A stretch of 41,251 bases of DNA, taken from Helicobacteraceae bacterium (lineage in GTDB: Bacteria; Campylobacterota; Campylobacteria; Campylobacterales; Sulfurimonadaceae). Made by a program: the position numbers and the translations under genes. The stretch is taken from the NCBI GenBank assembly GCA_013138865.1, contig WTBY01000043.1, positions 1-41,251 on the forward strand. The letters are read 5' to 3'. The notes below the pieces were generated by a model. The model saw only the letters and a program-made list of their open reading frames with translations. It was not told the DNA's origin and did no database searches. Every line of letters begins with the position of its first letter. The stretch's first letter is position 1. Shown here piece by piece: positions 10,007 through 10,970 of the stretch.

Positions 10007-10537
10007 ATGATCTCATCTTCAGCTCAAATGCAATCGTACAAATCACATGACCTAGATATTATGATGAAAACAAGTAGTGGCGATGTTATTAACTTAAATA
10101 TGTCAAATATGACTGAAATGAATGCCGAACTTAATAAAGATGAAAAAGGTGCTAATGGCATGTTTTCATTTACTACTATGCAAAGTTTTAACTTCGATAT
10201 ATCTAGTGAAAATGGCATAGATGAACAAGATAAAAAAGAGATCGAAGAGTTTATGAAAATTGCACAACCTCATATAGATGGTTTTATGGAAGAGTTAGAA
10301 GAACAAAAACAGACAACTCCTATGAACCAGATAGCTCAAGAGATCTCTTCACTTTTTGCTCCACTAAAAGAGAAACCAGAAGATACTCAAAACTTTGCAA
10401 AAAATGAGATTGTAAAACTATTTGACAACTCAATAAAACCTTACGAAGAAAAAGAGAATAAACTAGAAGATAGTATAACTCTCTTAAACAAAATTTTAGA
10501 CTCATTTAAAGAGCTTTATAAACCTATTTATGCGTAA
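10007..10537 (+). CDS. Hypothetical protein, helical, function unknown
   Basis: I do not recognise this 176-residue protein. It has no signal peptide or membrane segment. The first 70 residues contain alternating polar stretches with many Met and Asn and two repeats of a D-I-x-x-x-x-S-S pattern (about 16-25 and 64-69). The rest is acidic and predicted helical, with a Glu/Lys-rich stretch around 80-110. AAAGG lies about 10 bases before the ATG. It is divergent from rpmH and convergent with the cytochrome gene. The codon use looks native. Confidence 0.65.
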   Translation: MISSSAQMQSYKSHDLDIMMKTSSGDVINLNMSNMTEMNAELNKDEKGANGMFSFTTMQSFNFDISSENGIDEQDKKEIEEFMKIAQPHIDGFMEELEEQKQTTPMNQIAQEISSLFAPLKEKPEDTQNFAKNEIVKLFDNSIKPYEEKENKLEDSITLLNKILDSFKELYKPIYA

Positions 10538-10577
10538 GATTTAAAGGTAGTAACTTCATAATTTTTTAATTAGAAGT

Positions 10578-10625
10578 AAGTAAAACACGCTTTGCGTAGA
10601 AATTGATAATTTCTATGTTTTACTT
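10578..10625. other. 48-nt nested inverted repeat (three-way junction), probable bidirectional terminator
   Basis: A 10-bp outer stem (AAGTAAAACA at 10578-10587 with TGTTTTACTT at 10616-10625) encloses two back-to-back hairpins: CGC-TTT-GCG (10588-10596) and TAGAAAT-TGATA-ATTTCTA (10597-10615). All bases outside the loops are paired, so the strand can fold as a cloverleaf-like three-way junction. It lies between two convergent genes and covers the stop codon of the cytochrome gene. Confidence 0.7.
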
Positions 10626-10970
10626 AAAAAGAAAATCTTTTAAAACTTTTTTGCTGGATTGGTATGCAGGTTCTTGCACTGAAAAAGCTTTTTCTTTTAG
10701 TTTCATGTGGCAATCTCTACACTTTACAATTACTTCATGCTCTTTAATCTGTTTACTCATTTTTTCTACATTATGACATGAATAACAGTCACTTCCACAC
10801 TCTGCCATTGACTCAGGATCTGCTTTATGACACTTTATGCAGCCAAGCATTGCGACGTGGCGATCATCATTTAAAATATTTTCTTTGAGTGCAGGGTGAC
10901 AACTCATACAGTCGCCGGTACAAGCTAAAGTGTAACTTAAAATAGCAAAAATTAAAATAATTAGTTTCAT
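10620..10970 (-). CDS. Small periplasmic tetrahaem cytochrome c
   Basis: The 116-residue precursor has a short hydrophobic signal peptide (residues 1-16, likely cut before CTGD) and four CxxCH haem-binding motifs: CMSCH (21-25), CIKCH (44-48), CYSCH (62-66) and CRDCH (84-88). H39 and H78 are candidate distal axial ligands. It should be exported by Sec and loaded with haem c in the periplasm, then carry electrons between membrane-bound and periplasmic redox enzymes; its partner is unknown. A 6-bp inverted repeat (10972-10987) sits directly upstream where a Shine-Dalgarno sequence is expected and none is obvious. It is transcribed divergently from the WD40 gene. Confidence 0.85.
   Translation of the reverse strand: MKLIILIFAILSYTLACTGDCMSCHPALKENILNDDRHVAMLGCIKCHKADPESMAECGSDCYSCHNVEKMSKQIKEHEVIVKCRDCHMKLKEKAFSVQEPAYQSSKKVLKDFLFK

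Follow-up and report, generated by a model that had tools for sequence, protein, structure and literature searches.

A three-way-junction fold between convergent genes is probably the 3' module of a dispersed modular palindromic repeat

Background

The window, a stretch of 41,251 nucleotides (contig WTBY01000043.1 of the Helicobacteraceae draft assembly GCA_013138865.1), contains at positions 10578-10625, between two convergent genes, a sequence that can fold into a three-way junction (3WJ). The first-pass annotation of this DNA proposed that it might be a bidirectional terminator, a processing site or a small structured RNA. The question raised by the locus is therefore what such a fold represents, and whether it has a role that is specific for this site.

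The fold and its surroundings

The described anatomy, a 10-bp stem that encloses two adjoining hairpins with every non-loop base paired, proved exact, in its coordinates as well as in the pairing of all 42 non-loop bases. The stem AAGTAAAACA/TGTTTTACTT closes two hairpins with a loop of 3 nt each, and the position between convergent genes was confirmed:

10007-10537, + strand: left convergent gene, encoding a conserved protein of unknown function (gene calls; relatives)
10578-10587, + strand: left arm of the outer stem, AAGTAAAACA (fold)
10588-10596, + strand: inner hairpin 1, CGC-TTT-GCG (fold; altered in two sister copies)
10597-10615, + strand: inner hairpin 2, TAGAAATT-GAT-AATTTCTA (fold; stem kept in both sister copies)
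10616-10625, + strand: right arm of the outer stem, TGTTTTACTT, which holds the stop codon (10620-10622) of the - strand gene
10620-10970, - strand: right convergent gene, encoding a small multihaem c-type cytochrome-like protein (CxxCH in the translation; below the Pfam cut-offs)

The 48-nt junction has a minimum free energy (MFE) of -11.8 kcal/mol and a z-score of -3.24 (about -3.2), with one of 200 shuffles equally good, and it is the MFE fold on the + strand, on the - strand and as single-stranded DNA (ssDNA) alike. For the 87-nt stretch 10544-10630 the z-scores were -2.9 (+ strand), -4.2 (- strand) and -5.8 (ssDNA). Among the 10301 48-nt frames of the window a fold of this type occurs once. 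The structure continues leftwards into a second, bulged hairpin at 10553-10577.

The element and its copies

Family members in the window's own genome (3.03 Mb) were collected by a BLAST search with positions 10540-10660, and with a consensus, a hairpin pattern and a covariance model that were derived afterwards. In this way around 38 copies were recovered at around 32 places, with BLAST E-values down to 4e-16; the counts are those of the searches, with tandem units and opposite-strand echoes merged by hand. The pattern ACTTCNTAATN{1,16}ATTAGAAGTA yielded 17 exact copies genome-wide, against 0 for a backwards control. Since several draft contigs break off within a copy (L032 on C1, L033 on C65 and L036/L045 on C48), the true copy number may exceed this count.

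The junction constitutes the 3' module, termed C, of an 80-base element, in which it is preceded by the bulged hairpin, termed B:

10547-10626, + strand: the whole dispersed element, modules B and C(3WJ) without A (R1 covariance model match 1-80/80, 35.2 bits; BLAST copies)
10553-10577, + strand: module B hairpin, ACTTC-(A bulge)-TAATT-TTTT-AATTA-GAAGT (fold; family pattern)
10558, + strand: unpaired bulged base of hairpin B, A here and A, G or T elsewhere (19-copy alignment A2)

Other copies start with a 5' mini-hairpin such as CCC-TACG-GGG (module A), which is missing from the window copy. The loops of module A are mostly of the form C-UNCG-G with a varying N (TACG, TGCG, TTCG; e.g. L002, L022, L083, L132), UNCG being an RNA-type tetraloop. 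Module B has the general form ACTTC-N-TAATTC..GAATTA-GAAGT and is kept across the family; the consensus ahead of it is AATGTGACTTC / AAGGTGACTTC, and the window copy has GTAGTAACTTC, unlike the other copies. Module C consists of a stem AAGTAAACTC..GAGTTTACTT with an interior that varies between copies: AGCACAAGCC..GGCTTTGCACT, AATTGTAGCC..GGCTATCAATT, ACTCATAGC..GCTAAAGAGT, or the 3WJ. The latter is found in two further copies, at C39:24598-24653 (before mtnN) and C5:41475-41531, next to unrelated genes; inner hairpin 1 reads CGC-AA-GCG and TAC-TTT-GTG in these sister copies.

Nested or inserted extra hairpins occur in copies on C40, C76 and C77, and tandem copies on C41, C48 and C65. The copies on C40 (L099) and C76 (L096) have in common an additional hairpin, GTGTTCTATGC..GCATAGAATAAC, placed between modules B and C, which suggests module exchange or insertion, and the copy on C77 (L090) carries a hairpin within the loop of B. 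At G000:C41:50562-50820 (L041, L035, L029) a tandem array of truncated units with a period of 62 bp ends in one complete copy, and at G000:C41:52469-52560 (L060) the B hairpin is followed by a long near-perfect hairpin CGCTTTAGTTACACAAAATATG..CATATTTTGTGTAACTAAAGCG, which makes a C-type module quite unlike the others. On grounds of anatomy, an attC/integron reading (attC consensus not seen) and a CRISPR-repeat reading (no spacers) were dropped.

Placement of the copies and empty sites in relatives

The copies sit either at stop codons or a short way upstream of Shine-Dalgarno (SD) sequences. In nine of the 11 convergent-type copies, which were chosen as adjacent, the stop of the opposite gene falls within the last 7 nt of the element. 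About a dozen copies lie between co-directional genes, in the same orientation and typically 10-15 nt before the start codon. The genes downstream of these intercistronic copies include ones that we take, by sequence recognition, to be groEL, glnB, fabG, rpoZ and the malic enzyme gene; the identities of mtnN, the CN hydrolase and fabD have Pfam support.

The convergent gene pair of the window is conserved side by side in ten relatives. In nine of them the two genes share 4 bp at their stop codons and in the tenth they abut, whereas in the window they are separated by 82 bp, which is close to the length of the element. Given this difference, the window element is a lineage-specific insertion. 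A second empty site was found at the CN hydrolase/mtnN junction. Among 19 listed relatives, 18 have a junction of 11-21 bp and the remaining one (L152) has a different spacer of ~110 bp; in this genome (C39) the junction is filled by an A-B-C(3WJ) copy. The usual stop of the CN hydrolase gene upstream of mtnN (L100/L173) is missing here, and its reading frame runs on for a few residues to a TAA that the element supplies.

The ends of the element, which are approximate, differ between copies (left CCCTRCGGGG or TAAGGTGAC; right TTTACTTA or TTTAAGCA), and neither terminal inverted repeats nor a clear target-site duplication were found at them. The window site may have had a TTAA-like target, with no duplication established.

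Distribution beyond this genome

Of the 151 family genomes searched with the R1 covariance model, 4 had the repeat, one of them being the window's own genome. In a pattern scan of 84,980 species genomes a Sulfurimonas MAG was the one true relative; in three further matches the remainder of the element was missing, and these are probably chance matches. The sister genus that appears to contain this MAG was searched with model R3, which detected the element in 5 of 135 genomes. The 3WJ model R2, run over 39 relatives, returned the three own copies and one weak match in a distant genome (E 0.005), which we treated as chance. None was found in the viral contigs searched. A literature search gave no description of this repeat family, most subscription papers being outside its coverage.

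All five sister-genus carriers have the element at the identical fis-like/fabD junction (L105, L106, L132/L167, L103/L168 and L174, in scattered genomes) and almost nowhere else, one of them having a second copy. In most relatives, the nearest neighbours included, this junction is short and clean, and in the window's own genome it is empty as well. On a FabD tree with four carriers, 4 state changes were required, of which 3 were forced by well-supported branches. The pattern would fit either an old insertion that was lost repeatedly or a site that was hit repeatedly.

The first-pass annotation had suggested a search for covarying copies in the same genome and its relatives. Such copies do exist in the own genome (three with the 3WJ, ~38 of the family), but the same site is empty in relatives.

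Covariation of the arms

Within alignment A2 (19 copies) both sides had changed in 16 of the 31 pairs. Cells with two-sided changes numbered 63, against 21.8 +/- 3.3 in shuffles; considering that the copies are related, these are cells and not events. Of all cells 90.8% were paired, a figure that dropped to 39-45% when the partner was slid by one column. On the coding strand there were 521 Watson-Crick, 5 G-U and 30 A-C cells. The scarcity of G-U is general across the family; the excess of A-C constitutes weak strand evidence, as it stems mostly from a few columns common to one subfamily. For 16 of 21 copies the better fold is that of the opposite strand, and in copy C53:66666 the loop TTT has been inverted to AAA within GCC..GGC.

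Template switching between arms is expected to leave two marks, instant two-sided changes and loop inversion (PMC8794818). Considering the two-sided Watson-Crick changes with almost no G-U, the alignment suggests that the palindrome may be maintained at the DNA level, more likely than by RNA selection.

Discussion

Our preferred reading, which we consider probable, takes the 3WJ for the 3' module of a palindromic repeat of ~80-100 bp that is modular, dispersed and non-autonomous, REP/MITE-like in character, and that in this lineage was inserted where two convergent genes meet end to end. The copy number, the modular anatomy, the two-sided Watson-Crick covariation, the empty site in relatives and the positioning at stop codons and SD sequences all count for it, as do the tandem and nested arrangements. 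Against it count the five sister-genus genomes with one identical site, which resemble a retained leader more than a roaming repeat, and the UNCG-type loops of module A, which hint at an RNA role. The search for terminal inverted repeats, for a clear target-site duplication and for a plausible mobilising gene, which found none of them, counts against it as well, as do ends that are only approximate.

A role of the palindrome as a bidirectional terminator or 3'-end stabiliser for the convergent pair, in which the hairpin formed by either transcript would halt RNA polymerase or keep 3' exonucleases out, seems unlikely. The fold is good on both strands, the window copy lies in a convergent position, and many copies sit exactly at convergent gene ends. 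Nevertheless, a scan for a GC-rich stem followed by a U-tract found none on the + strand and, on the - strand, one weak site with a 5-bp stem, which is at chance level (1 found, 0.4 +/- 0.7 expected). Moreover, ten relatives have no intergenic space at all in the same gene pair, so that no terminator is needed there, and many copies lie in operons just before an SD sequence, where a strong terminator would be harmful. By the first-pass annotation's own rule for refutation, the empty site likewise speaks against a conserved, site-specific role of the kind that had been proposed, be it as bidirectional terminator, processing site or small RNA; any activity in termination or processing could be incidental to the inserted repeat.

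Somewhat less likely still is a cis-acting structured leader RNA, by which the intercistronic copies would regulate translation or processing of the downstream genes (fabD, fabG, groEL, glnB, rpoZ, mtnN and others), with the window copy being a displaced one. The dozen or so copies that precede a start codon by 10-15 nt in the same orientation would fit such a role, and so would the shared site before fabD in five sister-genus genomes, the frequent RNA-type UNCG loop of module A and the strong covariation. However, the downstream genes have no pathway in common, and most relatives, even the nearest, lack the element at the fis-like/fabD junction, with about 4 state changes on the FabD tree. 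G-U pairs are nearly absent and on the coding strand rarer than A-C (5 versus 30), the opposite strand mostly folds better, and an Rfam match is lacking: nothing relevant was found in the window at the gathering threshold, nor at eight loci at E<=1. Finally, although the sequence is short and AT-rich and the z-score of the single fold only about -3, a chance fold of an AT-rich spacer is refuted by the genome copies and their covariation, and hardly deserves further consideration; when the whole window was dinucleotide-shuffled five times, no equal fold turned up.

If the dispersed repeat is accepted, the element would move in the form of hairpin DNA, by means of an enzyme provided in trans, and its arms would be kept alike at the DNA level through selection on the hairpin DNA substrate and/or template-switch repair between the arms. 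No plausible mobilising gene was seen in the draft assembly; the sole lead is a broken Y1/IS200-type transposase fragment (L073, G000:C54:136654-136884), a single PF01797 match with a 104-aa open frame and one internal stop. Insertion at the window site would be tolerated since the ends of the element carry stop codons, which makes landing on touching stop codons harmless. With the insertion, each of the two convergent mRNAs would gain a hairpin at its 3' end, so that both transcripts would end in, or run through, a strong hairpin. A bolder version, to which we give little credence, holds that this is a new element of interchangeable nested hairpins, with arms that are rewritten together at the DNA level, which returned to the fis-like/fabD junction in separate Sulfurimonas lineages and burst to ~38 copies here. 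If true, it would imply an unrecognised site-choosing enzyme that acts on hairpin DNA, with the 3WJ as an alternative shape of the substrate.

Some generalizations can be made. A perfectly paired and seemingly functional intergenic RNA/DNA fold can be an inserted repeat. The covariation observed here could arise without RNA selection, which calls for caution in covariance-based RNA discovery. The ~38 copies and the empty sites form a compact natural set for testing how palindromes keep their arms matched, and how a repeat that provides stop codons can enter overlapping convergent genes harmlessly.

Comparison with known repeat families

The element resembles REP sequences and REPINs, which are small, dispersed, extragenic and palindromic with unpaired bases, and occur singly or in clusters (PMC3733652, PMC3116915). 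REPs are found mainly between co-directional and convergent ORFs (PMC3733652), and REPs and REPINs are mobilised by RAYT (TnpA-REP) tyrosine transposases (PMC3733652, PMC3116915). The element shares with them the extragenic location between convergent or co-directional ORFs and a copy number within the range of tens to hundreds. However, it comprises 80-100 bp with two or three different hairpins, where a REP is one palindrome of 20-40 bp, and it has about 38 copies. The conserved GTAG/CGTC tag is missing, also from the consensus ahead of hairpin B. Apart from the broken Y1 fragment, no RAYT or Y1 (HUH) transposase was found in this draft assembly.

A second likeness is to the MITE-like repeats NEMIS/Correia, ERIC/RU-1, RUP and CIR (PMC2229807), which are about 100 bp long and intergenic, have a strong secondary structure and leave empty sites. 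According to Table 1 of PMC2229807, CIR too forms a pair of independent stem loops that lack terminal inverted repeats. Dispersed copies and empty sites in relatives are a further likeness of the element to this group. It differs from the MITE-like repeats in that terminal inverted repeats or a target-site duplication are not visible, hairpin interiors are exchanged or nested, and the sequence is unrelated.

The double-hairpin elements of fungal and algal mitochondria are tandem hairpins dispersed in spacers; here the location is a bacterial chromosome and the sequence is unrelated, and the likeness is a resemblance only. Because the GTAG tag, a RAYT, terminal inverted repeats and a target duplication are lacking or not established, we place the element with the REP/MITE-like repeats but in no named family. 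It is best read as a new family of modular palindromic repeats that are REP/MITE-like and non-autonomous.
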